The position numbers and the translations under genes were made by a program. The notes beneath the pieces were generated by a model, which did not search any database, had not been told where the DNA came from, and was given only the letters and a program-made list of their open reading frames with translations. Positions 23,598-63,114 of a stretch of 64,000 bases of DNA are shown here, piece after piece (position 1 is the first letter of the stretch; each line of letters starts with the position of its first letter). Origin of the DNA: Lepidostoma basale (Eukaryota > Arthropoda > Insecta > Trichoptera > Lepidostomatidae). The stretch is taken from assembly GCA_022606425.2 (NCBI GenBank), contig JAHDVF020000513.1:419284-483283 (forward strand), in the 5' to 3' direction.

Positions 23598-23836
23598 TTA
23601 AATTTTAACGTAAGTTCCATCTTGAATCTGCAAGTATCTTGGGGGGTCGTGGTTGTGTGTGCCCTTTTCTTGAAATATCTTGTTATCTCTGATACCCGTG
23701 CTGGCATAGCACTGCTTGCCCCAATAGGAAGAGCACCGCCACCAGGACTTATCACCGTTTAAAGACCCTCGGTGCCGGCAAAATGTGTACCCGTCTATCA
23801 TCAGAAGTTTCTTGCCCTTGAAAGTAATGAATTTAG
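23598..23836 (-). CDS. mod(mdg4): FLYWCH alternative 3' exon A, mod(mdg4)-like
   Basis: Acceptor TTTTTTTTTTCCAG, then CT of a split codon and 78 residues to a stop. KFITFKGKKLLMIDGYTFC opens the domain; SWWRCSSYWGKQC gives the W-x-C and second Cys, and GTHNHDPP the H-x-H pair of a FLYWCH finger. In mod(mdg4) such C-terminal fingers give each isoform its partner specificity and are joined to a shared BTB part. No ATG is needed; the first Met is internal. Leftmost of the minus-strand set. Phase 1 entry as in the other thirteen. It could also be a FLYWCH exon of a different BTB locus, but the array layout favours mod(mdg4). Confidence 0.85.
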
Positions 23837-23839
23837 CTG

Positions 23840-24370
23840 GAAAAAAAAAATATGTGTGAGTAAAGGATATTAAAAAAGAAAATATACTAAAAATAGTATA
23901 CAGTCATAAAGATAAATATACGATTTTTTTATATTTTTTTGTTGAGACCAAAATAAACTAACCAACATAATACAAGACAATACAAGAGGCGGAAATTCTC
24001 TTGATTTTTTCTGCCTCTTATATATTGTCTATTATTTTGGTTATTTTATTTAGTTCTCTCGACAATGTTTGTTTAATACCTTCAAACCTTTAGAGAAAAA
24101 TAAACCCATCACTTGAAAAAGCAGTGTTTTCACTCATATAACAATAATTAAGGAATTCCAGTTTTAATGCTTTCAGTTTATCAAAAATTATATTGATTAA
24201 CCCTTGATTAACTATATTTATGGTATTTCATTTATTTTAATAAAAAATCACAAACATTATAGACATATAATTCCAGATCGTTTGCAATTACATTATAAGA
24301 ATTTATAAGAGAAGCATAAAAAAAATTAAGCTTAATTATTAGAAAGAATCATAACATTGATATTGCATCC
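23840..24370. other. No gene seen; inverted repeat near 23,970-24,040
   Basis: ACAATACAAGAGGCGGAAATTC faces GCCTCTTATATATTGTC, an imperfect short palindrome. Rest AT-rich. Confidence 0.4.
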
Positions 24371-24371
24371 C

Positions 24372-24850
24372 CGAGGCAACTCACACTATCACGAAATATG
24401 TCAACCTCTGAGGCGACCCGATTAAACAATACGATTGCCCTACCCACAGGCATAACCATTGGCAGGTTGGTTCTGCAGCGCGGCAAATAAAACAATCTGT
24501 GCTGTCTTTGACGAAGGGACAAAATAGACCTACATCACTCAGGACATCTGAGTTTTGTATACGGCTGCCAATCAGCTGAAAGAAGTGGATATTCCTCCTT
24601 CTCTCCGATGATTGGTAGCTTAGCATACCTAGCAAGAATTCAGTCGAAAAGAGCCACAGGTAAAAACCGCGCTCCCTGAGGTAAAGCGCAGAAATTTTGT
24701 CTGCACTCGCTCCACCATCAGAGAATATCGGATCCCAGGCGGTGACCAAATAATGGAACTATATTCCAGCCGATTTCTTACCAGGGAATTATACAACACT
24801 CGAAGTACTTGAAAATATCTTGGTATTCCTAAAAACAAATCCAAGCATTT
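24372..24850 (-). mobile_element. Jockey-like LINE C-terminal fragment
   Basis: Minus strand in two frames: RVLYNSLVRNRLEYSSIIWS, VERVQTKFLRFTSG, then LLGMLSYQSSERRRNIHFFQ, RIQNSDVLSDVGLFCP and closing text. This is the usual C-terminal end of a jockey-clade non-LTR reverse transcriptase; relatives at 36,538-36,950 and 58,075-58,510. Confidence 0.75.
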
Positions 24851-25039
24851 CTATTACATAGAGCAACTATGTGAAGATTGAACGATAATTGAGCATCAAA
24901 CAGATCACTGAGATCTCTGGATGTAGAAGCTCTTTCAAGCTGTGTATTATCATGCTGTGTGTCTTGAGGGTTTTGTAAGTTAGATTATGGTAGAATAAAG
25001 TGTCTAAATATGTGTAGAGGGATAGAATATTATATAATA

Positions 25040-25420
25040 TACTAGCGGACCCGACGTTGTCCTGACCGAACATTGGCTTGTCTGCTATTAGCTGGTTCAG
25101 CAAATGTTTTTTCGATAGTCATATTTTCGATAAACTATATACTAAGTGACATTTTAAGGGGTTCGTTGTGTTGCTCTTGACTTTTATTTGCCTGGTTTCT
25201 TAAATTGGCATCGTCAGGAGGTCAAATATTCATAAACTTCCCAAGAGGTTTTAACGGTCTCCTACTGGGTCCAATTGTGAATCTAAACCATCCAGGGACC
25301 CACTCAAACACACAAAAAAATTCATCAAAATCGGGTCCAGCCGTTTAGAAGGAGTACAACTACATGCGGCTGTACAGAAGATACATATAAAGATAGTAAA
25401 TTAAGAATACATATAAAGAT
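25040..25420. repeat. Dispersed repeat (CTAGCGGACCCGACGTTGTCC type)
   Basis: Begins ACTAGCGGACCCGACGTTGT and ends CATCAAAATCGGGTCCAGCC-GTTTAGAAGGAGTACAAC then a tandem ACATATAAAGATAGTAAATT. Such text is a common non-LTR element 3' end in insects; family not determined. Confidence 0.5.
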
Positions 25421-25479
25421 AGTAAATTAATATAAAAAATATATTAAAAGAAAAACAAACTTATTTTAATAAGTTTTAT

Positions 25480-26084
25480 TTGAGAGATTAATTAGATTGG
25501 TAACGCAAAAAAAAAATACAAAAGACATTAATACTTTTTTAATTTGCATTTTTAATAGTTAATATCAACTTTAACAAAAGTCTACATAAAGCAAAAATCT
25601 TGGATCTGAAATATTGGAAAAACATATTATATCTCATGGAATGTTTTTTTAACACTGATAAAGAAGAAACCATTCCATGCAATTGAAGTCTTTATCCTAA
25701 CCGAGGGCTAAGATAAGCTTTCTCCTATTAAAGACCTAAGATCGGGGCACTTAAAAGACAGAATAAGAAATGGGTGTAGATATTTGATTTTTACTTAACT
25801 CCACTAGAAATTTAAGGCTCCACTAGGGTTTTTTTGGATTGAGGAGAAATGTGGTAGTGCTTCCCCTTGATACTGATGAGGCAACCATCCTTCATTACGA
25901 TAGACACAAGACAATGCATTGACCAATTCTAGGACATCTCCACCAAGATTACCCTGATTGAGGGTATTTACACAATGTAAATGCGTCAATTATTATTTTA
26001 AAAAATCCTGTAGAATATCAGTTTTACTGAAATTTAACAATTGTCTCTTATAAGGTTACAGTTAACTTTTGACTTAATACCGGA
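25480..26084. other. No assigned gene; one unknown minus-strand ORF
   Basis: The 60-residue minus-strand frame 25,989-25,804 (NTLNQGNLGGDVLELVNALS, ...GWLPHQYQGEALPHF) is not recognised. It has no clear phase-1 acceptor. Possibly an old transposon piece. Confidence 0.3.
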
Positions 26085-29463: not shown

Positions 29464-29702
29464 TCATTGCCAGACTGGAAAGCCCATGAAGTTTTGATGT
29501 TCCTTGGGCATGTGGTGATTATGAACTAAGACCGAGTATACGATTATCCCATTTTCTACGTGAGCCAGAGCTTTACATCCTTTACTCGAACGGGAGGAGC
29601 AGTACCATCTTACTTTTCCTGTAAGCGTGTGAGAAGGACTCGAGAAAGTATAGCCCCGATAGAACAACAGCTTTTTTCCAATTCTGGAGTTGACGTACAT
29701 AG
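29464..29702 (-). CDS. mod(mdg4): FLYWCH alternative 3' exon B, mod(mdg4)-like
   Basis: Acceptor CTCTTCTTTTCTAG, split codon CT, then 78 residues to TGA. MYVNSRIGKKLLFYRGYTFS, then KVRWYCSSRSSKGCKALAH and LVHNHHMPKEH: aromatic start, W-x-C, Cys and H-x-H of a FLYWCH finger at about residues 15-64, with a longer tail (NFMGFPVWQ) than its sisters. Phase 1 entry. Minus strand, between exons A and C. Function as in exon A: an isoform-specific C-terminus of a BTB protein. Assigned on domain and array context. Confidence 0.85.
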
Positions 29703-30750
29703 CTAGAAAAGAAGAGAAAGTGTAAATTACTCAATATATAATTCTAACAGCATTATGTTGAATCCATCCAATTTTTTAATGTTGTTCTAAGTTAATATCA
29801 TGCATTTCTTTATTTATTTATATTATATTATACAAAAAGGGTTCAAAAGGGTAGTAGGGCTACGATGGGGTATGCTTTGCTGGAAAGTATGCCTCTACAA
29901 ATGTCGTAAGGCGCCATGTTGCATTTACAACAGCAACACAACTATCAAGTCCAACTCTCTAGCGTCCACGAGAGGTCTTTTAAAGACCTTGCGAACCCCG
30001 GGCAATGTGGCACATATTACTTAGTGCCATAGCCGATAGAGAGAGGACGAATGGCGAGCTTCCAGCGCCATAAAACTGGATACACCCAGCTAAGGGAAGG
30101 TAACCCCGACAGAAAATCCTCCAGAGAAGGCAAAGGGATACCACTCTGGATATTTTTCCCCAGGTCATCACTATGAAAAGGTGATAGTCAACGTTAGGGA
30201 GACCTGACAGGACACAGAAAGAAGAAGATATTATACAAAATAAAAATTGGAGAACTTTTAAGAAGTATAGTGTTTATTTTTTATTATAATTGCTGTCCTT
30301 TTATGTTTGTTCTGCTGGAATGATGAATTATTTATATTAACCTGTTAACCGGGGAATTTATTTTGTAATTACGCAATATACAATTTTTTCATAATGACGT
30401 GTCAGTTCATCACGCCCGCATGACGTAATTTCATAGAATTTTTTTTATCAATGCTTAGAATTAATGAAAAGACAATGAATTATATATTTTTTGTTTATTT
30501 ATAAATAAAAATACAAAATTCCAAACAAATAAACAAAAGTACTTACAAAAATGGGAATATTGAATTAATAAAACTATATTAAAAAAAAAAAATTTAAAAG
30601 TTATGAATCTTACAAACAAGTAGATATATAATGAAACATATTTTATTAAATTTATTTTGAAACAAAAACATATAAAGAAATTAACAATTTATTACAAAAC
30701 AGTAAACAAAAGCACACAAAGAAATATAGAATTTCAAAATTTGTAATATA
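29703..30750. other. No gene seen; a LINE tail at 30,010-30,235
   Basis: 30,010-30,235 (plus) reads toward GACCTGACAGGACACAGAAA-GAAGAAG, a (GAA)n-type LINE 3' end without a good coding frame. The remainder is AT-rich. Confidence 0.45.
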
Positions 30751-31370: not shown

Positions 31371-31618
31371 TCAAAGGTCAACTTTGGTGTGATATATTTT
31401 AAAACAGTTGTTAACACATAGAGCTACCTTACAATCCGGACACCAGTATGTAGATTCTTTTCTAGCACCACTTTTGTAGCAAACTCGGCATTTCCTGGCT
31501 TTAGATTTTCCTATATTGTTTTTCATTTGTTCTAGAAAATGTTTCTCAACTAAGCGTGATGGTTTAGGTGTAGGGCTGTTTGTTGGTCCATTTTGATGGA
31601 CACTAATAAACAAGTATT
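31371..31618 (-). CDS. Alternative 3' exon C with piggyBac-type Cys-rich finger
   Basis: Acceptor TTTTTATTTTAG, split codon AA, then 81 residues to TGA. PKPSRLVEKHFLEQM leads into RKCRVCYKSGARKESTYWC, PDCKVALCVNNCFKIYHT: four C-x2-C-like pairs ending C-F-x-x-YH. This is the cysteine-rich zinc finger at the C-terminus of piggyBac transposases, a DNA-binding module. The rest of the transposase is absent. Exon length (2 mod 3) and phase agree with the FLYWCH exons, so it reads as a cassette of the same gene. Alternatively it is a lone piggyBac relic that kept an open frame by chance; the two like exons at 47,568 and 49,247 speak against this. Confidence 0.7.
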
Positions 31619-31889
31619 CTAAAATAAAAAGATTGGAAATATAAGTAGAAAATTTAAATAAAAAATATATAGTACGAAAGTAGGAAGTGAAAGAACACAC
31701 CTGTCACCTCTCGCCAAGCACACCTCCACCCAACACAATAGCAAAGTTCCCGAAGCGATTCCCGTCGCGTCTTAAATCCAAGTCGAAACATGTACCGATG
31801 ACTCATACATTTGTTGAGTAAAAATACGTTCCGCCCGTTCAAGGGTGCAACAAATATTTCAAGGACACATTCACATGTCCTACCCGTAC

Positions 31890-34318: not shown

Positions 34319-34569
34319 TTATGTAGATAAATATGTTATATCGATGTGACCGTTACTATCAGATGGGGTGATTTTTGACTTGACTTGGTGATTATGGTTA
34401 TGTCTGTGTTTCACCACAATATCATTGAAAGTGTGCACAAATGCGTTACAGCCCAAATATCTCGAAGTGCACGCCCATCTCAGCTTTTGGTTCAATGAAG
34501 TGTGAACGGAGTAGGTGTGACCTCCAATGTTTAAAATTTTCTTGCCATTTCTGTTAGAACTGTAATAAG
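34319..34569 (-). CDS. mod(mdg4): FLYWCH alternative 3' exon D, mod(mdg4)-like
   Basis: Acceptor ATCTTTTTTACAG, split codon CT, 82 residues to TAA. YYSSNRNGKKILNIGGHTYS, KLRWACTSRYLGCNAFVHT, HRHNHNHQV give the FLYWCH pattern at about residues 9-57, then a 25-residue polar tail. Entry phase 1. It differs most from the plus-strand subgroup and is closest in style to exons B and E (the -RWxC...GC- form without SSY). Role inferred as an isoform-specific C-terminus. Confidence 0.83.
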
Positions 34570-34699
34570 CTGTAAAAAAGATATATTTAAAAAATATCAA
34601 GTCACATAGATTTTTGTCAAATTCCCATCAAACTTATTTTAAGCACAATGAAATAAATTTTAACCTAAAAAAACAAATTTATAAAAAAAAACATACTGC

Positions 34700-37322: not shown

Positions 37323-37513
37323 TTAATGATTATGGAATCCTACTGTTTTCAAAATTACACTATCAACGGTGTATAACACAGAACGGCAGCCAGCGTCTTT
37401 CTTGCTACAGCGCCACCGTACCGTGCCATTTGGTGCAACAGTTCGGTTGGAATATCGGTAGGGGCCGAAATTAATGACAACTGTTCCGTTCTTCGATGTT
37501 CCAAATCTAGGAA
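37323..37513 (-). CDS. mod(mdg4): FLYWCH alternative 3' exon E, mod(mdg4)-like
   Basis: Acceptor TTGCTTTTGCAG, split codon TT, then 62 residues to TAA. RFGTSKNGTVVINFGPYRYS, TVRWRCSKKDAGCRSVLYT, KTVGFHNH-stop: aromatic run, W-x-C, Cys and H-x-H, the last His being the final residue. There is no Met in the frame, so it is invisible to a start-codon search. Shortest of the set (191 bases). The nearest minus-strand exon to the orientation switch. Phase 1 entry as in all others. The W-R-C-S-K/R-x-x-x-G-C form is the classical mod(mdg4) FLYWCH form. Confidence 0.87.
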
Positions 37514-37914
37514 CTGCAAAAGCAACGATAAATTCATATTATTACATTTTCACAAATGAAAGACTAAGTCTTAAAATTAAATAAAAATTAACAAATCATT
37601 ATCAGTACTATACTAGTGCAGTCACTGCTCGAGACATATAACATATTGAACATGCTATTAAGATCAAAACAACACTTTAATAATTAATATTAAAACCAAA
37701 ACAACACTGAAAATTTAAAAATGAGAAAATAACTACAAATAACACTTCACGAATTCATCATTAACCGAGTGAGCCAGCTTTAATCCAAGAAAATTATAAA
37801 TAAAAAAAAACACGTAGAAAAAACCAACTAAATACATTTTTTTTTAATGTATACAAATACTTGTAGAAAAATACTGGATTTTACCCGTTATGGGTGTATT
37901 AATCATTAATAATT
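37514..37914. other. No gene seen; AT-rich
   Basis: Upstream (minus strand) intron of exon E; no feature recognised. Confidence 0.4.
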
Positions 37915-38105
37915 AATTGTATCTCAATAGAGACTAGTGTATCTCAGACGTGGTGTTCGTAGAAGGGCAGAATGGGGAATGTTGTATTACATAAAGCGAT
38001 CGCTTAACCCAACCAATGACAGGTCATAAGTCCTGAAACGCCTCGACCACCATATTCTGTTTCCAAATAATTTACATCTTTGGCTCTATTGAATTACAAT
38101 TAATT
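37915..38105. repeat. Dispersed repeat R1
   Basis: AATTGTATCTCAATAGAGAC at the left, GCGATCGCTTAACCCAACCAA in the middle and the inverse CTCTATTGAATTACAATTAA at the right. Confidence 0.65.
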
Positions 38106-38117
38106 CTTATCTAAAAA

Positions 38118-38345
38118 CATGATAATCCCTCATTGTGCAGGTGGCTATATTTGCAGTTAAAATAATTTGGTCTGCGGTTGACTACATTTACAGATGACAG
38201 ATAGTCCCCGCTCATTAAAATATTACGTACAATTTAATAGTAAGGAACAAAAGTAAATAGGTTTAAAGATACAATCAAATATGAGCTGCAAATGTAGTGC
38301 GCGGCAGTTCAAAACCATTATTTTGGACTGCAAAAAGAGTTAATC
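38118..38345. mobile_element. MITE family 'CCCC(T)ATAG..', copy 2
   Basis: CCCTCATTGTGCAGGTGGCT-ATATTTGCAG ... GTGCGCGGCAGTTC, resembling 34,700-34,925. Confidence 0.5.
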
Positions 38346-38443
38346 CACTCATTAAATCATGAAATATTTGGTCTATTGAAAAAAAGACGTACACTGTTGA
38401 TTCAAATCAATTTTTTTATACAATCACTAGTATGAGAAGAAAT

Positions 38444-38690
38444 GATGACCTTTGTGGCGGAGTGGTAAGTGCATTGACTGTCACCCCGAAGGTTCCGGGT
38501 CCCATTCCCGGCGAGGGCAGTGTGATTGTCACACTGTCATTGGTCTGATGTAAAATTCACTTAACAATAAAATGGCGATGGATTAGCTACCTATCAAATG
38601 TCGCGAGAATCACTATGATAGCTATAATACCCTTTACATCGATTTGGCTCATGCTGTCATGATGTAAAGAGCGACAAATTAATAATAAAT
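38444..38690 (+). mobile_element. tRNA-derived SINE (family 1)
   Basis: GATGACCTTTGTGGCGGAGTGG, B-box-like GGGTCCCATTCCC, body ACAATAAAATGGCGATGG and CATCGATTTGGCTCATGC, tail of AATAATAAA. Confidence 0.82.
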
Positions 38691-39177
38691 TATTATAAAA
38701 ATAATTGTTGCCGCACTTTATAATCGTCAATTGTGACACGTAATACGTTTGTACTGTTTTTCTGTTAAAATTATATAAGTTTTTTCGTTTTTATAAAGAA
38801 TTTTGACAGGTGTAAAAATAAATTTTTCATTTGTTCCAATGACAATTTGAATAATTTCTTCAATATTATTTTTAAGTTCTTGCTGGTTAAGTGCCTAATT
38901 ACAGCTAATTTAAAAAACGGTGGATACGTGTAACATAAATTAAATAAACACAAAAGTCCGGATCGTCCATGTCAACATGTGCAACATCGAAAAAAACATT
39001 ATGTGTTATTACATTATGTGCTAAATTAGAAAAAAACGGTGGATATGTGGAACATAAAATAAAAAGACAATATGTGCACCATCTAAAAAGAACATTTTGT
39101 GTTAAATTATTCATATTTTGTTATTTTATTTTATATCATTGTATTTTATAGTATTTGTTTCAGATTTATTTTGTGGG
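38691..39177. other. No gene; short internal repeat
   Basis: The text AAAAAACGGTGGATA(C/T)GTG and ACATAAA appears at 38,912 and 39,030, a direct repeat of about 120 bases. Nothing coding recognised. Confidence 0.4.
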
Positions 39178-39365
39178 TGTTGGACGATCGAAGTGTGCGC
39201 GGGAGATGCCTATTGGTGGCGATGAGGTTTGCAACCCATCACACCGCGTCTCCCGCGGGGCGAAAAGAGAAGGATGAAGTGCTGCATCAGTAAAAGTGTG
39301 ACAGTTCATTCTTTCTGCCTACCCTTTTGGGGAGACGGCGTGATGGTTAGTTAGTTAGTTAGTAA
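39178..39365 (+). mobile_element. SINE sharing the LINE (GTTA)n tail, longest copy
   Basis: Starts GTTGGACGATCGAAGTGTGC, GGGAGATGCCTATTGGTGGC, then the common middle and CATTCTTTCTGCCTACCC ... GACGGCGTGATGGTTAGTTAG. Confidence 0.78.
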
Positions 39366-41828
39366 AAATAAATAATAGCTCATAATAATGAGGAATAAAC
39401 TGAGTCATCTCCAGAATTGATCTTAAATCTCTTAAAACATGACCCAAAATGATATTACCATAAAGTACTAATTTATATACATTCTTTACAATAATTGAAG
39501 CCCGGTTATTATAATACAAAAATAAAAACAAAGAAAAATAACAAAAACTGTTTGTTGTTCCATGTAATGTGCCATGGGTGGCATCTTTAGGGTGACGTTT
39601 GAACTACACTATATTATAAAATCACTTTACACCTTTGCAGTTATTGGCCTTCACATGTAACACCAATTGGGATAAAAAATACTTTTTTGATGCACCTTTG
39701 TTATATAATATCCAGCCCTCAATTACTAAATGTTATCAACCAAATTTGCATTTGGGAAAAAAAAATTGTGTATTTGAATTAAAAGATGTACATAATTTAA
39801 TGTCTTATATAAAAAATATTTAGTATACATAGCTTAATAATCATATTTTTAATAAAACTTGTGGCTCTGTTTTCATAAGAGCTCGTGTATTCGATGCTTC
39901 TTACTAGAAAATTCTATCATTTGAAACTTCAAAACAAAAGTCTTACAATAAACAAGGAAATTAAAATAGGGTCTTCAATTAGAGATAATCGTTGACAAAT
40001 AAAAAATACTTACGATTCATTAATCAATACGAGGCACTGAGGAAATACGAACTAAACAAATTAATATTGCTTCATATATTAAGTTTATTTTTTTAAATAG
40101 ATTAATGTATTTTAGAGTCCGGATATATACAAACAAATAAATAAGTTCACAAACAATATATGTTAACTAAGATTTCTAAAATTATGGCATATTATAATAT
40201 GGCACATAATACAATAAAAGTAAAATAAATGTTGATAAATTCATCCAAAAACATAACCCTTTACTGTCAGATGTCACTTTCGCTGTATAAATTAAGTAAG
40301 ATAATATGATAACAGTGAACACGCGATTATTTTTATTAGCTTTTTAAAAATAGCAAATTGTGTAATTTTAAATTAAAATAATAAAATAAATACATTACGA
40401 AAATTTGACAATCAACAAACACATTACACAAAATGTTGGATTAAAACCATAGAAATTGACTATCTACATCTACTAATGTGGTTTTTCTTGATCATTCCGT
40501 GGAATATTTTTCGTGAGATACGCTTACTCAATAGGGTAAGCGAAATCAATATTGGCACACAATCCGAAAATAAGGTTAAATCGACCAGCGTTGCCTATAA
40601 CTGTGTCATATACCCTATTCGAGCGGTTCGTGTTACTCCACAGAAACAGATATAAGTTTTGTTAGGTTACGGTCTGCATTTGTACTGTCAAAATATTATA
40701 TTTTGCTTCGTGTATAATAAATACTTATTAGAAACTATTTTGTAATTTGAGATATTATTTTAATTTGAGATATAAATATAACGTCGGTATTCGTAATATT
40801 AAATATTTATGTTTAGATGTGCCGTTCATTTTACCGTTTTTTATTTGTTTTCATTCCAGTGTAAACACTCATTGGTTATTTGAATTGTGGTTATAATATT
40901 AGAAATAAAAGTTGCGTGATGGTTTTTTAATATAATTTATAAATTTTCATACGTTTAGTTCATTTTACGTTACACATAAATTACTGTGAATATGCTGTTT
41001 AAATGACACTGTGGCTATTTTTAATTAGAATGTATATGAATATTATTGTATTCAGTGAAATGTTTTTAATTCAGGTAAATTGATTTAATACTAATAAATC
41101 GTTTTGCATTTAAATGTCTTTCATTTATAGTATTTATATGTATTTTTTATTGCGACAAGATTTTTTTTCCAAAATAATACAATTGCCCAATTATCAGTTT
41201 ACAGCCTTAATATAGATCCTGCTTCCTGTATTTTGACAACCAAACTACAATTAAATTAAATTGTTTGTTCATTTAGTAATATTTGCAATTAAATAGAAAT
41301 AAACAATAGTAGCATTTGCAAAAGTGTGGATAAATATCATTTAAAGAGATGCTTACCTTGTTCGTTTATTAATATTGTCATTATTTTTTTTTAAATACCT
41401 CTTAATATTTTTTCTATTACATTTATTGAGTTCTTTTACTAAAAATATGGTTTGGCATAAATACTCAATTGTGAAATGCTTCATTGACTAACAAATTAAT
41501 GCAATTAACTGTTACATATTCCAATGTTCATAAAAAAAAACATTGAATGTTCATCCCAGTATACCACTACACCAAATACGAGCGAGAAAAAAATATGTTT
41601 GCTTGTATTTTGACACTAAACTGACGAAGAAGAAAAATGTTGAATGACATTTGACATAGGACTCACTAGAATAAAGTCGATGTCGAATGTCATTCGACAT
41701 AGGACCGGAAAGTGTTGATCCTTTTCGATATATTAACATGGGATCAATAAGTGTGCAGTAATGTTTATGTGCAACAATATAAGTAACCTGCAAAAAGTGA
41801 GTTAATAAACTGTTTAATTTGTTTTCAG
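39366..41828. other. Divide between minus and plus exon blocks; no exon seen
   Basis: 2.4 kb without FLYWCH, BTB or LINE coding signal. An unknown 62-residue frame (39,635-39,823; YFFDAPLLYNIQPSITKCYQ) follows TTTGCAG but not in phase 1. 40,490-40,680 is somewhat richer in GC with CGATAC-type words and could hold a promoter or untranslated exon, which I cannot prove. Confidence 0.4.
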
Positions 41829-42070
41829 TGAATTTCATTACTCTTAAAAATAACTCCACCCTTGTGATGTATCAGAATTACACTTACAATAGAGGACGGC
41901 GTTGCGGAATAGGCACGCGCTGGCACTGTTCCTCATATGGAGCCCTACGCTGCAAAGCTTCTATCGTTATCAAAGAAAATATTATAATTTCTCTCAGATG
42001 TGTTGCACACAGCCATCCTCCTCCCAATATCTACCATATTGACGGAAGATTTCAAAAACGTCAATTTTAA
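41829..42070 (+). CDS. mod(mdg4): FLYWCH alternative 3' exon F, mod(mdg4)-like
   Basis: Acceptor TTTGTTTTCAG, split codon TG, 79 residues to TAA. NFITLKNNSTLVMYQNYTYN, GTRWHCSSYGALRCKASIV, CVAHSHPPPNIYHIDGRF: FLYWCH with H-S-H at the end and the PP-x-x-x-x-x-G-x-F tail shared by the plus-strand subgroup. First exon of the plus block, 4.3 kb from the last minus-strand exon. Phase 1. The first residue would be Val if the common exon ends in G. Confidence 0.87.
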
Positions 42071-43867: not shown

Positions 43868-44097
43868 TGAAATATATATCCGTAAATAACAAAACACTTC
43901 TAATGTACAAGGAGTATACCTTTAACAAGGGACGCCCGAGAAGTTATGGCACTTGCTGGAATTGTTCCTCCTATACCACTCTTCGCTGCAAGGCCTCCGT
44001 TGTTGTCAAGAATGGTCAAATAGAGTGTCTCAGAAATCAACATATTCACGATCCACCTCAATTTTTTGTAGTTAATGGGAAATATGTGAGGTTCTAA
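43868..44097 (+). CDS. mod(mdg4): FLYWCH alternative 3' exon G, mod(mdg4)-like
   Basis: Acceptor TGATTGGTTTCAG, split codon TG, 75 residues to TAA. KYISVNNKTLLMYKEYTFNK, GTCWNCSSYTTLRCKASVV, NQHIHDPPQFFVVNGKYVRF. W-x-C, Cys and H-I-H are in place. Sister of exon H: the first 19 residues are identical and both exons are 230 bases long, so they arose by tandem duplication. A pogo-like element starts 3 bases after the stop, so the 3' UTR is transposon sequence. Phase 1. Confidence 0.88.
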
Positions 44098-44100: not shown

Positions 44101-44649
44101 CAGTAGAACATCGTTTATTCGGACGTCAGTTAACCGGAACGTCAACTATCCGGACAAGCCAAGATGATGAAATGTTCTGTACCGTGACATATGCATGACT
44201 AAGCTTACCCCACCACACCTACACAAAGTTGGGTGTGGGTTGAACGATGATGAAATTGTTTCTCTGGTACAAAAATAGAGTGAGGATGAAGATGATGATG
44301 GAAGCTCAGATGAGGATGATGAAGGAGAACGAATCAGTCATTGAGAAGCTTTTACAGCATTTGAAACTGCGCTATCATGTTTGAAGAGCAAGAGGAAAGC
44401 AGCTGAACTTAATTGCTATTATTAAAACTCAATTACTTTTCCAGTAATGTAGAGTAATGTAAGCCTTTTTATGTACACACTGTACTACATAAATACTTGT
44501 TTTTGCAGTTAAATTTGGTATTTCATAATCAATAAATTAGCTGAGGATAAATATCGATTTACACCTTATTTTGCTAAAAGAATTAGCGCCTGTTTGATTA
44601 TCCGGAACGCCTCTGGTCCCAATTGGTCTGGATAAACGAGGTTTTACTG
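44101..44649 (+). mobile_element. pogo/Tigger-like element abutting exon G
   Basis: Ends CAGTAGAACATCGTTTATTC and AATTGGTCTGGATAAACGAGGTTTTACTG, TA flanks 44,099-44,100 and 44,650-44,651. Inside, 44,250-44,420 carries a broken piece of the transposase C-terminus (DDEIVSLVQK, acidic run), as in 51,432-52,000. Confidence 0.85.
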
Positions 44650-44686
44650 TACTTTCAAATTTACTGCTTTTTTTTACTACTTTAAA

Positions 44687-46700: not shown

Positions 46701-46792
46701 AACTGCAAAATTAAATTGGAAGATTTGTTCATCATTCACATCTTTTTCTGAAAACTTTTTTAGTAATCATATTGTTTTGTTTTTGCTTTTAG

Positions 46793-47022
46793 TGAAATAT
46801 ATATCTGTCAATAATAAGACCCTGCTTATGTACAAGGAATACACCTTCTATAAGGGGTGGTCTACAACTGCAGGCTCTCGCTGGACTTGTTCATCATACC
46901 CTACATCCCGTTGCAAGGCGTCAGTAGTCATAAAAGATGACAAATATTTTTCTTCTGTAGATAATCACATTCACAAGCCTCCTAGATTTTTTGTTATTAA
47001 TGGGAAATATGTGAAATGTTGA
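46793..47022 (+). CDS. mod(mdg4): FLYWCH alternative 3' exon H, mod(mdg4)-like
   Basis: Acceptor TTTTTGCTTTTAG, split codon TG, 75 residues to TGA. KYISVNNKTLLMYKEYTFYK, GSRWTCSSYPTSRCKASVV, DNHIHKPPRFFVINGKYVKC: complete FLYWCH with H-I-H. Nearly a twin of exon G at both ends but different in the centre (W-x-C surroundings), the part expected to set binding specificity. Between the two lies the tandem array and a LINE piece. Phase 1. Confidence 0.88.
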
Positions 47023-47225: not shown

Positions 47226-47567
47226 GAATATGTGGTAAATATAAGGAAAATGTAACAGGATCTGTCACTAAATATCCATTAATAAATAAACCTTTTCAGT
47301 TACCTGATAATATGTGTCGAATTATTGTTACATTGCAAATTGGATTGTAAATTAAATAACTAAAGTGTGTTTTTTTTTATTGTTTGTAATTATAAATAAT
47401 CAAATATTTGTATAGCACATATACAGTATTACTATCAAATAATATATAGTTACAATGTATTATAATGGTGGATACTATCATTGTGACAACCTATTTTAAT
47501 AATTGTGTACTCGGTTCCATTTTATTGCAATGGGCGCTTCTTTATTTTAATTTACAGTATTTTGCAG

Positions 47568-47782
47568 ATGTCTATGAAAATTCTAAAATGTTTGTCAAAA
47601 CAAAATGTCCGACATTGTCACCAGTGCTTGGAGTGGTGCAGAAAAACAATGGGCACAATCCGGAGCGCATTAAAAAACCATTGCGTTGTGTTATTTGCCA
47701 CAACCGAGGTCGCTGGTGTTGCGAACTCTGTAAAAAAACATTATGTGTTGAGCGACCTTGCTTCGGGCAATTTCACTCTTAA
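47568..47782 (+). CDS. Alternative 3' exon I with piggyBac-type Cys-rich finger
   Basis: Acceptor TATTTTGCAG (the nearer of two; the one at 47,557 would give phase 0), split codon AT, 70 residues to TAA. KKPLRCVICHNRGRWCCELC, KKTLCVERPCFGQFHS: C-x2-C, C-x2-C, C-x5-C-F-x-x-FH, a shortened form of the piggyBac C-terminal finger. Preceded by 40 polar residues without transposase motifs. An AATAAA lies about 65 bases past the stop. Second of three such exons. In phase with the FLYWCH exons, hence probably spliced to the same common part. Confidence 0.7.
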
Positions 47783-48900: not shown

Positions 48901-49246
48901 AACGGGACACAGTTGGAGGTGGAAGAGTATAATTGGTATGTATGGGGAAAAGAAACTCTAGAGATAGTAGGCAGAGAAAGAGCCACAAGAACTATTTGAA
49001 GGTTAAGAAGAGTACAGAAATAACTAAGTGGTGGTTCTGCAGTAAATAGCGAAAAGTCACTGGTTACATACTCGTATATTTCATACAGATGAAATTGATC
49101 AAGTTAATCGCTATGCATCAAGTATATAAAAACATTTTTGTGGGGAATCAAGGTGTGTTATAAACTCATATACTGTTTCAAAGTGAGAAAAAATACAATG
49201 AAACAATGATATTTGATGTTTCTAAAACCATTGGTTGGCCTTTTAG

Positions 49247-49494
49247 GAGGAGAATTTCCAAGAGGCACTGAATTTCAAAGAAGATCTGCTATTCTTCCTA
49301 CAGAAGGCCGTCTTATGAATAAATTACATATCCTTCGTTCCGGAACCAAGAAGGACTGTGCAGTGTGTTCTAATAGAAAAGTTATCGGTGGAAGAAAAGA
49401 AACACGGCTATTTTGCGAAACCTGTGAAAATCAACCTGGTCTACATGTCGGGGATTGTTATGTGAAATATCATACAATGAAAATATATAAATAA
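49247..49494 (+). CDS. Alternative 3' exon J with piggyBac-type Cys-rich finger
   Basis: Acceptor TTGGCCTTTTAG, split codon GA, 81 residues to TAA. EGRLMNKLHILRSGTKKDC, AVCSNRKVIGGRKETRLFC, ETCENQPGLHVGDCYVKYHT: the complete C-x2-C ... C-x2-C ... LH-V-x-x-C-Y-x-x-YHT pattern of piggyBac C-termini, close to a canonical one. Phase 1 and length 2 mod 3 as for the FLYWCH exons. It lies between exon I and exon K in the plus block. Likely an old transposon end taken over as a terminal cassette. Confidence 0.72.
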
Positions 49495-49755: not shown

Positions 49756-49904
49756 TGAATATTGTAAAATAAATTCTGATATCATTGATTGAAATCCTCA
49801 AAATCCAAAAGAAAAAGAATTCATCCTGAACTTGCTATTTTACTAACATTTTAAGGACTCTATTTAATTTTCCCATAACTTACTTATGTTTTTCTTTTTT
49901 ACAG

Positions 49905-50140
49905 TTAAATATTTTTTTATACACAAAAAGAGAATTTTGATGGCTAACGACTACACATACTGGGTGGGCACGACGGCGACTAAGGGGGGAATAAACTGGA
50001 CGTGCTCCTCTTCTTCTTCCTTAAAATGCAGAGCTTCAGTGCTTATCAAAAATGATGAGATCCATTCAAAAAAAAATCATCATAATCACAAGCCCCCCAC
50101 TGTCTTTGTATGTAATCAGTCAGAGTACTTTGAAATTTGA
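49905..50140 (+). CDS. mod(mdg4): FLYWCH alternative 3' exon K, mod(mdg4)-like
   Basis: Acceptor TTTCTTTTTTACAG, split codon TT, 77 residues to TGA. KYFFIHKKRILMANDYTYWV, INWTCSSSSSLKCRASVLI, NHHNHKPPTVFVCNQSEYF: W-x-C, Cys, H-N-H. The K-Y-F/I start and the SS-x-x-x-L-K/R-C-K/R-A-S centre place it in the plus-strand subgroup with F, G, H, L. The stop lies 17 bases before a large inverted repeat. Phase 1. Confidence 0.87.
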
Positions 50141-50157
50141 ATGATTATGACTTATGT

Positions 50158-50850
50158 TTGTTGTGTTTTTGGGTAACACAGTGTGATAACTCCTTCTCGA
50201 CCGACGTTTCGGAGATCGTTGCAGTCTCCATCTTCAGGGTAATGAATGTGATATGTGTTGTGTCTGCTAAGGTACTTCACCGTTGTACCGTGTCGCCGGC
50301 AGTGTGTACGTATGAGACAAAGGTTCCCCGAAATAGCTTGGCACAGGGGGCATTCCGGAGCGGTATGTCGCCGGCAGTGGGTTATTCCCCTAATTAGCTA
50401 AGCACTAGTACACTAGACTACTAGACAGACCGAGGAGCCAACGTGCACGTCTCATCAGCGAGGCAATCGAAATTTATCAACACCCGCAAAACATCAACAG
50501 AGACGACGGCCTCCGCCTTAAACCCGCGTGGTATCCGGTACTACACAATATACAACCCGCCCGACTGAGGCCCGCGCCGCCCGGTGACACACCACCCGGG
50601 AATGGGCCCCTTGTGAATAACCCACTGCCGGCGACATACCGCTCCGGAATGCCCCCTGTGCCAAGCTATTTCGGGGAACCTTTGTCTCACACGTACACAC
50701 TGCCGACACGGTACAACGGTGAAGTACCTTAGCAGACACAACACATATCACATTCATTACCCTGAAGATGGAGACTGCAACGATCTCCGAAACGTCGGTC
50801 GAGAAGGAGTTATCACACGGTGTTACCCAAAAACACAACAAACATATTGC
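50158..50850. repeat. GC-rich inverted repeat with hammerhead-like stem-loops (family E)
   Basis: Arms 50,165-50,390 and about 50,610-50,840 are inverse: TTTTTGGGTAACAC.., CGACCGACGTTTCGGAGATC, ..GGGCATTCCGGAGCGGTATG. The stem-loop is at 50,202-50,237 (minus) and 50,762-50,797 (plus). The centre (50,400-50,600) is GC-rich and not repeated. Likely a Penelope-like element remnant in inverted form. Confidence 0.75.
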
Positions 50851-52792: not shown

Positions 52793-53686
52793 TTGTCGAA
52801 ACACATTTTGTAAAATTGTAACATATTTGGTTGTATTTTTGTCTAATAAATTAAAATAATTAACAGTGTGTTCTGTTACCCTGACGAAGCTCCTGCGTGA
52901 GCGAAATCGGTTGGCATTTATATAAAATAAAGTGGTTTATATGCAAATTTTACAAGTGTATTATTTTATAGAATAATTTTTACAGTTTTTTATTTATTTC
53001 CTTTCGAGTATTTATTAATGACACAGTACAAAAGAAATAATGGTTTTCCAATATTATAATAACATTTTTTCTGATGGAGCTTATCACGGATTGAACAAAT
53101 TGTACCTGTTCTTGATGTTTGAAGCTCATATTTTCCAAATTTAGAGTATCTACACCATATTCTAAGAAATTAAAAAATCATATCAAGAAAAAGTTATTCA
53201 TTGTTTTGGCTGAAACACAATGATACTTTAACATTATTGAATATTTTAAAGTTGAAACACCTTTATTACACAATCACAATTTATTAATTATTTTATATGA
53301 GATTGACGCAACAGATGTTTCGCTAACCTATGTTGGCATCATCGAGTGTTACAAATAACATAACACCTGATAATGCCAACATAGGTTGGCGAAACAGCTG
53401 TCGTGATCTCATAAAAATAATTAACAAATATGAGATACATAATATAATAACCGTGTTCAAAATTGAAACATTTACTAAACAAGGCTTTAACATTATGGAA
53501 TTCAATAATGCCGATTTTTTTATGAGAAAGAGTAGAGTTAAAGAAGTGAATGTGTGAAAAATTATAATATTGGGTAGAATTTGGTAAGTACTATATATTT
53601 CAAAGTTCTGATTATACACAAGAAATCAAATTTCCTATCCAGAAGTTAAGTTATTTTTGTATATTTAATTAATTATTTCTTTCTAG
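52793..53686. repeat. Stem-loop repeats (families F and A), no gene
   Basis: Family F: CTGACGA, GCTC/GAGC hairpin, GCGAAATCGG at 52,881-52,912. Family A inverted pair at 53,300-53,405: minus copy near 53,308-53,346, plus copy 53,367-53,403 (CTGATAA, GCCAAC/GTTGGC, GAAACAGCTGTCG). Confidence 0.6.
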
Positions 53687-53919
53687 TGAAATATATTGTC
53701 ATGGGCTCTAAAACATCTCTGATGTTTGACAAGTACACATACAGAAAAGGGAAACCTTCAGGAAAGGGAGTTCGCTGGCATTGCTCCTCGTATTCTTCCA
53801 TGCGCTGCCCGGTCTCCCTCGTGTTACAAAACAATCGAGTTATCTCTATGAGAAATCAGCATACTCATGTACCCCCCAGTTGGTACACGGACTCGGACGG
53901 AAATTATATCAAAATTTGA
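53687..53919 (+). CDS. mod(mdg4): FLYWCH alternative 3' exon L, mod(mdg4)-like
   Basis: Acceptor ATTTCTTTCTAG, split codon TG, 76 residues to TGA. KYIVMGSKTSLMFDKYTYRK, GVRWHCSSYSSMRCPVSLV, NQHTHVPPSWYTDSDGNYIK: full FLYWCH with H-T-H. Close to G and H but with Pro in place of Lys after the third Cys (RCPVS instead of RCKAS). AATAAA at about 53,963. Phase 1. Confidence 0.88.
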
Positions 53920-56060: not shown

Positions 56061-56156
56061 TTGTATTAATTATTTTATGTGAAGTTTTACACTATTGTTA
56101 AAGAAACAATAAATAATTCAATTGTTTATAAATACAATTAATTTATATTTTTTCAG

Positions 56157-56392
56157 CACAGTTCGTCAACTCGCGTTTAGGCAAACCCATGTTGATGTTT
56201 CGGAAGTTCACGTTCTGTAAGCACAGGGTCACCGCCGGTAACAGAGTACGCTGGATGTGTTCTCAACACACCTCCAAATGGTGCAACGCCAACGTCTATA
56301 CCAAAGACAACGTCATCATTTCGTTTCAAAACTCACACACCCACAATCCGCCGAAATACGCCAGACATAATGGAGAATATTTTAAAATTTAA
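56157..56392 (+). CDS. mod(mdg4): FLYWCH alternative 3' exon M, mod(mdg4)-like
   Basis: Acceptor TTATATTTTTTCAG, split codon CA, 77 residues to TAA. QFVNSRLGKPMLMFRKFTFC, NRVRWMCSQHTSKWCNANVY, NSHTHNPPKYARHNGEYFKI: FLYWCH with W-M-C, Cys and H-T-H. It belongs with exon N (shared NSR/SKxGKP-LM, FC, GNRVRWxCS, PPKY) in a second plus-strand subgroup; exon B has a similar NSR-x-GK start. Higher GC than its surroundings, as expected of constrained coding DNA. Phase 1. Confidence 0.88.
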
Positions 56393-57381: not shown

Positions 57382-57384
57382 AAG

Positions 57385-60100: not shown

Positions 60101-60107
60101 GTTATAT

Positions 60108-61257: not shown

Positions 61258-61260
61258 AAC

Positions 61261-61448
61261 GGTCGACCTTCGTGGCAGAGTGGTAAGAGCTCTGACTTTC
61301 ATACCGAAGGTCCCGGGTTCGATTCTCGGCGATGGCCGTGTGATTGTCACACTGTCCTTGGTCTGGTGTAGAATTCTCGTGACAATAAAATGGCGATAGA
61401 TTGGCTACCTATCACATGTCATAAGAATCAATATAATAGCTCAAATAA
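61261..61448 (+). mobile_element. tRNA-derived SINE (family 1)
   Basis: GGTCGACCTTCGTGGCAGAG, TGGTAAGAGCTCTGAC, B box GGGTTCGATTC, body GTGACAATAAAATGGCGATAG. Tail short. Confidence 0.85.
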
Positions 61449-61487
61449 ATTGTATACAGTAATTGGGTTCAAACGACCTGTTATAAT

Positions 61488-61740
61488 TCGTCGATTCAAA
61501 GGTAAAACTCACTAAGTGACATTTGATTTTTTTTTTTTTGCAATTTCTGTATCAGACTTGTGAATTCTACGGCAGAAAGTAATCACCAAGTGTTTTTTGT
61601 TAAAGAATAACTGTTATTCTTTAATAAATACACTTGGTGATTGTTTTTTGACGTAGAATTCACAAGTCTGATGCGGAAGTTGCAAGAAAAGGAGAAAAAA
61701 TTGAAATGTCACCTAATGAGTTTTACCTTTGAACCGACGA
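61488..61740. mobile_element. Foldback MITE
   Basis: TCGTCGATTCAAAGGTAAAAC at the left, GTTTTACCTTTGAACCGACGA at the right; arms of about 115 bases stay complementary through CACCAAGTGTTTTTTGTTAA / TTAATAAATACACTTGGTG. Confidence 0.85.
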
Positions 61741-61906
61741 TATACAAGGGAAAAAATATATATTTTGCTTTAAAAAGGCATTATCATAATAAATATAACA
61801 TATCCAAATAACTTCCAACAGGGGGGAGCAATAGCCTTCGAGCCGATACTCCTGAAAGACATGATCCAAGAAAAGATATATAAATACCCCCAGTAGTTCT
61901 ATGAGT

Positions 61907-62350
61907 CAGCGGTTCTCAAATTTTTTTGGCGAAAGAACCCTTTTGAAACACTAAATATTTTACGGAGCCGTACAATAAGCAAAAACTGATTTTATGTTCA
62001 TTATTTAATTATAATCATCTAATGAACGACGACCTTCGTGGCCGAGTGGTAAGTGCATTGACTGCCACCCCGAGGGTTTCGGGTTTGATTCCCGGCGAGG
62101 GCAGTGATTGTCACACTGTCTTTGGTCTGGTGTAGAATTCACGTGACAATGAAATGGCGATAGATTAGCTACCTATCGCATGTCACGAAAATCACTATGA
62201 TAGCTGTAGTACCCTTCACATCGATTTGGCTCATGCTGTCATGATGTGAAGAGCGATTCAACAGAGTAATAATAATAAAAATATCATATAAAAAATGGGT
62301 ACATTATAAACTATGCTCATTATAAAATATGTACACTTTGAGAACCGCTG
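61907..62350. mobile_element. hAT-like element with nested SINE
   Basis: Ends CAGCGGTTCTCAAATTTTTTT and CACTTTGAGAACCGCTG are inverse. The interior is taken up by a family 1 SINE (62,028-62,285). Target duplication not evident. Confidence 0.7.
62028..62285 (+). mobile_element. tRNA-derived SINE (family 1), full length
   Basis: GACGACCTTCGTGGCCGAGTGG, B-box-like GGTTTGATTCCC, body, CATCGATTTGGCTCATGCTG, (AAT)n tail. Confidence 0.87.
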
Positions 62351-62440
62351 AAGGTAGACATTACATAATTGTTCGGACTATAAATGTATATGTTGTCTCT
62401 ACATTATAATTATTAGAAAAATACAGTTTATATTTTATAG

Positions 62441-62690
62441 GATTAATTGTATCTCAATAGAGACGAAGATGTAAATTATTTGGAAACAGAATATGGTAGT
62501 CGAGGCGTTTACAGGACTTATGACCTGTCATTGGTTGGGTTAAGCGATCACTTTATGCTTAACAACATTCACCATTCCTCCCTTCTTACGATACCACGTC
62601 TGACAAATTTTTGGAACTATATGTCAATATTTTTTAATAACTTCACTGTTAGTAGGTCCATCTACACTAGCACCATCTATTAAGATAATT
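62441..62690 (+). repeat. Dispersed repeat R1
   Basis: ATTGTATCTCAATAGAGACG, GAATATGGTAGTCGAGGCG, GGGTTAAGCGATCACTTTATG, ending CTAGCACCATCTATTAAGAT. Opposite orientation to 11,768-12,030. Confidence 0.7.
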
Positions 62691-62887
62691 TGTAAGCATT
62701 AAGCAGAAAATCTTTATTAATGCAATGTGAAAGGCTTTTACGCAATTATCACATTGCTAGATAACGCCTGGAGTGAAACTCCAATTTTTATGCTTTTAAC
62801 TTGTACCAGTTTTTATGGAATTTTTTTTTTTTTGTATACAAAAAAAACGAAGTTTATATTTTATTAAATGAAAGGTTTTTGTTACAG

Positions 62888-63114
62888 TTGTCTTGTCGAA
62901 GAACGGAAAACCTCTGTTGATGTTAAATGACTACACATTCTGCAGACAGCAGTCGGCTTCCGGAAACAGGGTCCGCTGGATCTGCTCCACCCACTCTAAG
63001 GGATGTAAGGCTAATCTGTACACGAGAGGTACGCAAATTGTGTCTTTTAAAAACGACCATGTCCACGAGCCGCCCAAGTACGTTAGAATTAATGGAAAAT
63101 TTGTTAAAATATAA
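62888..63114 (+). CDS. mod(mdg4): FLYWCH alternative 3' exon N, mod(mdg4)-like
   Basis: Acceptor TTTTTGTTACAG, split codon TT, 74 residues to TAA. VLSKNGKPLLMLNDYTFCR, GNRVRWICSTHSKGCKANLY, NDHVHEPPKYVRINGKFVK: FLYWCH with W-I-C, G-C and H-V-H. Sister of exon M. Last exon of the window on the plus strand; the array may continue to the right. Phase 1. GC content is higher than in flanking DNA. Confidence 0.88.

Follow-up and report, generated by a model that had tools for sequence, protein, structure and literature searches.

In Drosophila, mod(mdg4) is described with 31 variants, 27 of which carry a FLYWCH tail (PMC9723646). Conserved trans-splicing elements lie in the intron after its last common exon, and a bidirectional promoter is located between the D. 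melanogaster acceptor exons T and K (PMC12692577). Mod(mdg4)-like loci of Danaus plexippus, Bombyx, Plutella and Aedes are described in PMC4667647, with 24 acceptor genes over 550 kb in the monarch and a donor-acceptor distance that can reach 0.95-1.28 Mb in Aedes. A comparable organisation is reported for Drosophila lola, with a TTK-type BTB front, alternative zinc-finger exons and isoforms made by trans-splicing (PMC11426971).

The window, meaning the whole analysed stretch of 64,000 nucleotides from Lepidostoma basale, formed the right end of contig C1122 and lay within a far larger array. Judged from sequence, it very probably holds some of the arrayed acceptors of a mod(mdg4)-type gene, at least one strand set of which is joined in trans. 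The locus resembled D. melanogaster mod(mdg4) in its common BTB part, its alternative 3' exons, the predominance of FLYWCH tails and the presence of acceptors on opposite strands, the last also being described for the lepidopteran loci (PMC4667647). It differed in scale. At least 182 FLYWCH matches and 24 piggyBac-type tails were found, compared with the 31 variants of D. melanogaster, and acceptors were several-fold more numerous than in the Danaus, Bombyx, Plutella and Aedes loci and distributed across no fewer than three large contigs. The common part comprised 283 residues from two coding exons, the 81-base second exon being presumably used, whereas 402 aa from four exons are given for D. 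melanogaster (PMC5666082). A class of piggyBac-type tails was also present; the word piggyBac is absent from the main text of PMC4667647. These tails matched the C-terminal cysteine-rich domain of piggyBac transposase in sequence, but occurred as solo terminal exons without a catalytic core found upstream. The scale of the array and the piggyBac-type tails look new in the literature searched.

Terminal exons of the window

A preliminary description of the window had claimed 14 short exons, five on the minus and nine on the plus strand, and all 14 open frames with their own stops were found at the places given there. FLYWCH fingers, claimed for 11 of them, were identified by Pfam matches over the cut-off (E 6.8e-13 to 5.3e-8). 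The remaining three exons (31371, 47450 and 49210) showed likeness to the piggyBac C-terminal zinc finger. With a zf-Tnp_2 cut-off of 24 bits, 31371 passed at 29.5 and 49210 was just under at 23.8. Exon 47450 had no Pfam match; its cysteines and last histidine aligned with those of 31371 and 49210. Combined as a profile, the three exons matched piggyBat 9c0f with E 6.2e-10. Scanned singly against Pfam, the 14 exons showed only FLYWCH, zf-Tnp_2 or nothing, and none (0/14) contained a C2H2 zinc finger, in contrast to the mostly C2H2 tails of lola. A sub-threshold C1_2 match was also seen in 31371. The features of the window were:

23598..23836 (frame 23598-23903), minus: FLYWCH terminal exon, phase-1 acceptor to stop; Pfam E 5.3e-12; acceptor 7.8, phase 1
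25815..25928, minus: broken FLYWCH exon relic with stops and a frame change, outside the 14; own FLYWCH profile E 8.8e-5
29464..29702 (frame 29464-29730), minus: FLYWCH terminal exon; Pfam E 6.3e-10; acceptor 8.0, phase 1
31371..31618 (frame 31371-31703), minus: piggyBac-type zf-Tnp_2 terminal exon; 29.5 bits; piggyBat 9c0f E 6e-6; acceptor 3.1, phase 1
34319..34569 (frame 34319-34627), minus: FLYWCH terminal exon without in-frame ATG before the domain; Pfam E 1.2e-8; acceptor 4.3, phase 1
37323..37513 (frame 37323-37538), minus: FLYWCH terminal exon without in-frame ATG before the domain; Pfam E 3.1e-8; acceptor 6.2, phase 1
37539..41800, no strand: gap separating the minus block from the divergent plus block; no Pfam family reported within
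41829..42070 (frame 41801-42070), plus: FLYWCH terminal exon, near copy at C1122:51492; Pfam E 5.3e-8; acceptor 5.5, phase 1
43868..44097 (frame 43858-44097), plus: FLYWCH terminal exon; Pfam E 5.2e-9; acceptor 3.8, phase 1
46793..47022 (frame 46702-47022), plus: FLYWCH terminal exon; Pfam E 1.6e-8; acceptor 6.6, phase 1
47568..47782 (frame 47450-47782), plus: piggyBac-type zinc-finger terminal exon, divergent and the weakest case among the 14; Cys/His pattern; alone, 0 Pfam and 0 PDB matches
49247..49494 (frame 49210-49494), plus: piggyBac-type zinc-finger terminal exon; zf-Tnp_2 23.8 bits; piggyBat 9c0f E 3.4e-4
49905..50140 (frame 49868-50140), plus: FLYWCH terminal exon; Pfam E 1.3e-9; acceptor 9.9, phase 1
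53687..53919 (frame 53650-53919), plus: FLYWCH terminal exon; Pfam E 1.5e-12; acceptor 4.2, phase 1
56157..56392 (frame 56132-56392), plus: FLYWCH terminal exon; Pfam E 6.7e-12; acceptor 4.8, phase 1
62888..63114 (frame 62872-63114), plus: FLYWCH terminal exon; Pfam E 6.8e-13; acceptor 0.8, phase 1

A stronger acceptor in exon 49210 would place its start at 49304; both AGs were in phase 1. The gap at 37539..41800 is a candidate site of divergent promoters. Searched against Pfam in six frames with stops read through, the window yielded solely FLYWCH and zf-Tnp_2 at E 0.001; this long-frame scan was not fully sensitive, as a mariner HTH domain (26.9 bits in a single-frame scan) and exon 49210 were unlisted. 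No BTB domain was detected in the window by the six-frame scan, or on its contig in a genome-wide BTB search. A BTB domain sized like the one on contig C211 (90 bits, see below) would be expected to appear in the window scan despite its imperfect sensitivity.

When AGs upstream of the domain were ranked by a weighted acceptor score, 13 of the 14 window exons had a phase-1 AG at the top (binomial p 6e-6 at a chance rate of 1/3). As a control, 141 further open frames 70-120 codons long were scored; the best AG was in phase 1 in 54 of them, and at that rate p was ~3e-5. The sole exception was 47450, with its best AG in phase 0 (47558) and a weak phase-1 AG ten bases further on. The wider 274 kb of C1122 held 62 FLYWCH exons, and the best AG near the domain start was in phase 1 in 57 of these. 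In the other five an out-of-phase AG scored higher and the second-best was in phase 1, poor in 54075. The same 274 kb contained 18 piggyBac-type exons with open frames of 54-121 codons. Phase 1 was best in 14 of them; an out-of-phase AG scored higher in 85286, and 92487 and 118092 had no acceptor above the floor. An out-of-phase AG also outscored the phase-1 AG in exons 1454589 and 1460403 of C211.

The array and its probable BTB donor

The FLYWCH matches of the genome were concentrated on few contigs, with four of the at least 182 lying off the main array contigs. When the best 150 of 355 candidates were scored genome-wide, all 150 were over the cut-off, and 146 were located on C1306 (72), C1122 (36), C211 (31) and C430 (7). 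At least 126 zf-Tnp_2 matches were obtained from the best 150 of 400 candidates. Among the matches listed, 12 were on C211, C1306 and C1122, and their strand agreed with the block in 12/12. The 24 piggyBac-type exons were reduced to 19 when weak or truncated ones were left out. By coordinates, 17 of the 18 on C1122 had the same orientation as the FLYWCH block around them. Array exons were mostly arranged in long same-strand blocks, and strand switches occurred on C1122, C211 and C430. The clean split of the window into a minus and a plus block, as first described, was real in that both blocks exist, but it was only one of several such switches in the larger array.

The preliminary description had proposed a search outside the window for a BTB exon with a phase-1 end, and one was present on the plus strand of C211. 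The TTK-type exon started at C211:1127781 (Pfam BTB E 7.9e-26, 90 bits). It was nearer to the D. melanogaster Mod(mdg4) N-terminus (68% identity over 119 aa) than to Lola (50% over 120 aa). Its 3' end, ...TCTG|GTTAGT, was in phase 1 with G as last base. An 83-base intron and an 81-base exon followed, the latter ending ...CAAG|GTAGGA, again in phase 1 with G as last base. Donor exons and most acceptors thus had one common splice phase, a match in one of three possible phases. Joined on paper to the 14 window exons, the donor gave open products of 346-366 residues in all cases.

Just past the donor, plus-strand acceptors were located at 1129651 (FLYWCH) and 1132218 (piggyBac-type), and minus-strand FLYWCH acceptors followed at 1137275, 1138790 and 1140148, the first ~9 kb downstream. 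The best AG was in phase 1 in all five, weakly so in 1138790. With acceptors on both strands of C211, one strand set would be out of cis reach, barring misassembly or an unseen second donor. The donor flanked in this way supports the mod(mdg4)-type reading proposed at the outset, including its strand set beyond the reach of cis-splicing. Trans-splicing was the best, if unproven, reading.

The strongest competing explanation, although unlikely, is that two or more ordinary genes are present, with every strand block spliced in cis from its own BTB donor. The assembly contains no link between C1122 or C1306 and C211. The array on C211 (3,295,571 bases) is interior, at about 1.13-1.65 Mb, so adjacency of C1122 and C1306 to this contig is not established by the assembly, and a gap in the assembly may hide a second donor. 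Contig C565 moreover has another BTB gene of the TTK type; a piggyBac-type exon and a FLYWCH exon follow it on its own strand, and this is apparently a cis gene. However, none of the 69 matches of the genome-wide BTB search, in which all 103 candidates were scored exon by exon so that divergent BTB exons may escape, fell on C1122, C1306, C430 or C1151, and C211 had only the one at C211:1127847 on the plus strand. The minus acceptors downstream of this plus-strand donor also argue against separate cis genes. So does the tree of the 62 C1122 exons, in which minus and plus blocks were intermingled, with 9 changes among four blocks compared with a minimum of 3; many forks lacked resolution, and if only well-supported branches are counted, no more than 1-2 changes per block are required.

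Misorientation of the minus exons by assembly error, with a true array that is one-stranded and cis-spliced, is very unlikely. The region is repeat-rich, which favours misassembly, but strand switches were found on three contigs and again close to the C211 donor. Long runs such as that of C1306, where 72/72 scored FLYWCH matches were minus, are not easily made by a local inversion error, and acceptors on both strands are reported for Drosophila, silkworm and monarch (PMC4667647).

Origin and constraint of the exons

Slightly less probable again is that these sequences are remnants of transposons, of the piggyBac and FLYWCH-bearing kinds, rather than exons of a gene. Both domains are described as transposase-related (PMC10027918, PMC8086355), and zf-Tnp_2 matches occurred elsewhere in the genome within open frames of 583-638 codons. 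Against this, no transposase core was reported in the window by the six-frame Pfam scan or ~1-1.2 kb upstream of 15 piggyBac-type solo fingers outside it, although a strongly decayed core could escape in either case. Acceptors were mostly in one phase and exon strand agreed with the block. In the tested pair 43858/46702, DNA similarity was limited to the stretch from acceptor to stop, with dN/dS 0.14 at a dS of 1.81, near saturation. This extent and the low dN/dS indicate that the exon set is more than chance. All six piggyBac-type pairs also showed dN/dS of 0.13-0.46. Recent FLYWCH duplicates were weakly constrained (pooled pN/pS 0.63 over 11 independent pairs, some near or above 1), suggesting that part of the array may be decaying. 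That every exon is its own short gene for a small FLYWCH protein is hardly credible: an in-frame ATG was present ahead of the W-x-C core, downstream of the preceding stop, in 49 of the 62 frames, but 13 had none, and the similarity of 43858/46702 began at the acceptor, not at an ATG.

Judging from the trees, the runs of same-strand exons, the relics and the lack of transposase cores, the array appears to have grown as exons duplicated locally, blocks were inverted, copies decayed and solo finger modules of the piggyBac type were captured.

Proposed expression and significance

In the proposed mechanism, the donor pre-mRNA carries the TTK-type BTB exon and probably the short one behind it, each with a phase-1 end whose last base is G. 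It would be joined by splicing to a single terminal exon out of a very large set. Every exon in this set has a separate acceptor, in phase 1 with few exceptions, and ends with a stop of its own; the tail it encodes is either a finger of the FLYWCH type or a cysteine-rich one of the piggyBac type. From each mRNA a protein of ~350 residues would be made, in which a shared multimerising front is followed by a tail that differs between mRNAs and binds DNA or chromatin. Acceptors on both strands of the donor contig and on other contigs suggest that at least one strand set is joined in trans. By analogy with Drosophila, the acceptor RNAs would be transcribed separately.

A bolder proposal, offered tentatively and rather doubtful as a whole, is that one mod(mdg4) front serves more than 200 tails from two transposase finger families, over megabases and perhaps at unlinked sites. 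Joined in trans and renewed by rapid duplication and divergence, these would form a transposon- or heterochromatin-recognising repertoire. Insects would in this way possess an equivalent of the KRAB zinc-finger arsenal, reached along another path.

If transcripts confirm the mod(mdg4)-type reading, a remarkably large alternative-exon repertoire would be attached to one gene and could function in its entirety only through trans-splicing. The tails of the piggyBac type point to a route to new DNA- or chromatin-binding ends, in which transposase fingers are simply exonised in the right phase. The cysteine-rich domain of PB is described as DNA-binding, and that of the related Paramecium PiggyMac as showing no DNA binding and weak histone H3 binding (PMC8086355). 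Repression of the HeT-A retrotransposon by Drosophila Mod(mdg4) variants, most of all N, is reported in PMC9723646. Together, these activities lead to the testable idea that insects may diversify chromatin-targeting proteins by swapping terminal exons instead of duplicating whole genes.

Terminal exons of the window

All 14 open frames listed in the preliminary description were present where it had placed them, and its assignment of FLYWCH fingers to 11 of them held, with all 11 above the Pfam cut-off. The three exons that it had left open (31371, 47450 and 49210) look like one class, termed piggyBac-type here. A joint profile of the three sequences hit the piggyBat transposase at E 6.2e-10, in its C-terminal cysteine-rich domain. 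Taken singly, exon 31371 matched with E 6e-6 and exon 49210 with E 3.4e-4; exon 47450 alone gave no piggyBat match. Exon 31371 was over the cut-off of the Pfam family zf-Tnp_2 and exon 49210 just below it.

A six-frame Pfam scan of the entire window (E 0.001) returned the FLYWCH and zf-Tnp_2 families alone, with no BTB domain and no transposase core. It was run on long frames and failed to list a 26.9-bit mariner HTH that a single-frame scan detected, so weak domains may escape it. Rfam at gathering scores matched nothing in the window. In the protein collection, one FLYWCH relative (P0001, of 61 candidates) reached E 0.001, and a single-exon query retrieved none; viral contigs scanned twice, with two single exons as queries, yielded no relative. 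Other features of the window were as follows.

7297-7587, plus strand: mariner-like fragment (Pfam HTH_48)
1-5555 and 12574-18397: tandem segmental duplication left of the array, pieces 93-97% identical; a recent duplication or an assembly artefact
10193-11038, plus strand: open frame of 281 residues, no match in Pfam; by eye possibly an insect gustatory receptor fragment, a tentative name
44620-45669: five tandem repeats of a roughly 200-base unit, with a FLYWCH exon on either side
50153-50295 and 50704-50846: inverted repeat of 143 bases, 99% complementary, directly after exon 49868; may be a foldback or MITE that inserted recently

The proposed BTB donor

The preliminary description had suggested looking elsewhere for a BTB exon ending in phase 1, and such an exon was found on the plus strand of contig C211. 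The BTB search gave 69 matches, and the single one on contigs C211, C1122, C1306, C430 and C1151 was C211:1127847-1128128 (plus). In 274 kb of C1122, the contig holding the window, local tblastn with a BTB consensus reached a best E of 6.5.

The donor frame starts with MASDEQFSLCWNNFHSN, with the Met at 1127781. It runs for 769 bases to the end of the BTB exon at 1128549, in phase 1 (TCTG/GTTAGT). An intron of 83 bases with the acceptor AAACAG leads to a second exon of 81 bases, which also ends in phase 1 (CAAG/GTAGGA, GT at 1128714) with G as its last base. As the base shared at the junction, this G makes a stop at the junction codon impossible. By base counts, 49 of the 57 C1122 FLYWCH exons whose best acceptor is in phase 1 would give Val or Ala at that codon. 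Joined in silico to the donor, all 14 window exons gave an open product, of 346-366 residues. The donor agreed at 68% over 119 aa with what we take to be the fly Mod(mdg4) sequence, compared with 50% for the Lola sequence that we likewise assume; its identity as Mod(mdg4) depends on that fly sequence.

Extent and strand layout of the array

The window (C1122:419284-483283) forms the right end of C1122 (483,283 bases) within the 768.8-Mb assembly. The genome search for FLYWCH yielded 355 candidates, of which 150 were scored, all of them matches over the cut-off; 4 of the 11 window FLYWCH exons were among these 150, so the genome count is a lower bound. A profile grown from the window exons detected 62 FLYWCH exons at E < 1e-4 in the 274 kb of C1122 that were read (200-409 kb unread).

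FLYWCH and donor-proximal features
C1306: 72 FLYWCH among the 150 matches listed, all minus
C1122: 36 among the 150 listed
C211: 31 among the 150 listed, 12 minus and 19 plus
C430: 7 among the 150 listed
C1151: 2 among the 150 listed
C36: 1 among the 150 listed
C565: 1 among the 150 listed
C1122, 0.8-76.8 kb: block of 23 FLYWCH exons, plus
C1122, 78.3-456.8 kb: block of 32 FLYWCH exons, minus (200-409 kb unread)
C1122, 461-482 kb: block of 7 FLYWCH exons, plus
C211, downstream of the plus-strand donor: FLYWCH 1129651, plus
C211, downstream of the plus-strand donor: piggyBac-type 1132218, plus
C211, further on: FLYWCH 1137275, 1138790 and 1140148, minus
C211, further on: piggyBac-type 1141921, minus

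The union of the FLYWCH sets was 180; with C211 1129651 (plus) and 1138790 (minus), at least 182 were counted, four of them on C36, C565 and C1151. The best AG near the domain start (short span) was in phase 1 in 57 of the 62 C1122 FLYWCH exons, and in the remaining five the second-best AG was in that phase. Near the donor, all five scored exons (1129651-1140148) had a phase-1 best AG, a poor one in 1138790. Three other pieces of C211 showed the same phase in 5/6 FLYWCH exons; the best AG was out of phase in piggyBac-type 1460403.

Acceptors opposite to the donor strand cannot be joined to it in cis. The layout on C211 is the known mod(mdg4) arrangement, and the acceptors, those of the window included, would probably be joined by trans-splicing. 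Two cis genes would also provide acceptors on both strands; with a single BTB match on the five array contigs and acceptors of both orientations downstream of it on C211, this was considered unlikely. An assembly error was judged very improbable, the strand change recurring on C211. When 40 kb of C211, 10 kb of C1306 and 20 kb of C565 were compared with the stretches of C1122 that had been read, 376 alignments resulted, none longer than 806 bases; the 15 listed showed 74-94% identity and resemble dispersed repeats. The 40 kb are the smaller part of C211's array, so the array contigs may include haplotigs of one another.

The piggyBac-type tail class

The 274 kb of C1122 contained 18 piggyBac-type fingers, 15 of them beyond the window. 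By coordinates, 17/18 shared the strand of the FLYWCH block around them; the exception, C1122:79079-79408 (plus), is at most 1 kb from a plus/minus switch. The best acceptor was in phase 1 in 14/18 and in phase 0 in 85286 and 47450; 92487 and 118092 had no acceptor above the score floor. Five were weak or truncated: 85286, 107659 and 119589 (profile E 8e-4 to 2.4e-3) and the short 92487 and 118092. Pfam searches with 10 of the 15 outside exons placed six over the zf-Tnp_2 cut-off and left four without a hit. Including 1132218 (plus) and 1460403 (minus) of C211, the array contigs contained 24 piggyBac-type exons in total, a number that drops to 19 when the five weak ones are left out. In six close piggyBac-type pairs, dN/dS was 0.13-0.46.

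Genome-wide, zf-Tnp_2 gave at least 126 matches (150 of 400 candidates scored). All 12 listed on C211, C1306 and C1122 were in frames of 72-110 codons on the strand of the FLYWCH block. Off the array, many were in frames of 583-638 codons, a length that would fit real transposases; others were short as well. The long frames were spread over many contigs, and several of them scored identically, a hint of piggyBac-like copies that were active recently. In the 1-1.2 kb or so preceding each of the 15 outside exons (three frames, Pfam E 0.01; shortened by locus ends for 119589 and 30175), no transposase core was found; the matches there were an adjacent finger exon and an unrelated family at a marginal E of 0.0091. 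That the exons are transposon debris and do not belong to a gene was regarded as highly implausible, given their block strand and dN/dS.

A second TTK-type BTB gene was located on the minus strand of C565 (within 643501-653500 and 625501-635500). Its two BTB pieces, joined, were 65% identical to the C211 donor over 113 aa, and one exon of each type, piggyBac-type and FLYWCH, lay downstream on the same strand. The gene has the appearance of a cis relative and hints that the finger class also occurs beyond the array.

Acceptor phase and exon boundaries in the window

Using assumed acceptor score weights, the best AG between open-frame start and domain was in phase 1 in 13 of the 14 window exons; in a comparison set of 141 other open frames (70-120 codons), 54 had a phase-1 AG as the best one within their first 100 bases. 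Exon 47450 was the weak case, with a better-scoring AG out of phase. In the closest window pair, 43858/46702 (dN/dS 0.14, dS 1.81), similarity rose at the acceptor and fell at the stop. All 14 exons have a poly(A)-like hexamer (AATAAA or ATTAAA) no more than 1.5 kb beyond them, which means little at a background of 2.6 per kb per strand for AATAAA alone. That each exon is its own short gene is scarcely credible, given that similarity in the pair 43858/46702 sets in at the acceptor.

Evolution of the array

A tree built from 62 FLYWCH exons clustered neighbours, with 23/28 minus-left exons in one clade (98/96). The four strand blocks required 9 changes on this tree versus a minimum of 3, with 24/59 inner branches unresolved. 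C1122 plus exon 51492 and the window's plus exon 41801 were 90% identical over 77 residues despite lying 410 kb apart, and the window holds one broken FLYWCH relic. Constraint on young FLYWCH duplicates is weak (pooled pN/pS 0.63, 11 independent pairs). The young C1122 pairs 8723/23136, 11113/19274 and 69236/71405 had dN/dS of 1.92, 1.25 and 1.71, values that are not put forward as positive selection. We read the array as having probably grown by birth-and-death with strand inversion.

Relation to known loci

Trans-splicing of mod(mdg4) is reported in Diptera and Lepidoptera, with nine isoforms combining opposite-strand exons in D. melanogaster and 24 acceptor genes over 550 kb in the monarch; Tribolium, Apis, Camponotus and Daphnia are reported to have canonical cis genes (PMC4667647). 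A further account describes every fly isoform as trans-spliced and a bidirectional promoter between acceptors T and K (PMC12692577), a site that the window's 37.5-41.8 kb gap recalls. The literature searched, mostly outside subscription journals, contained no report of mod(mdg4) tails with piggyBac-type fingers, or of so large an array. The kind of locus is already known; its scale and the second tail class look new.

On C211, the array stops within the 3.3-Mb contig, so C1122 and C1306 may be distant or unlinked. Another donor hidden in an assembly gap would weaken the case for trans-splicing. If C1122 and C1306 are distant or unlinked and served by the C211 donor, the need for trans-splicing would be all the greater.
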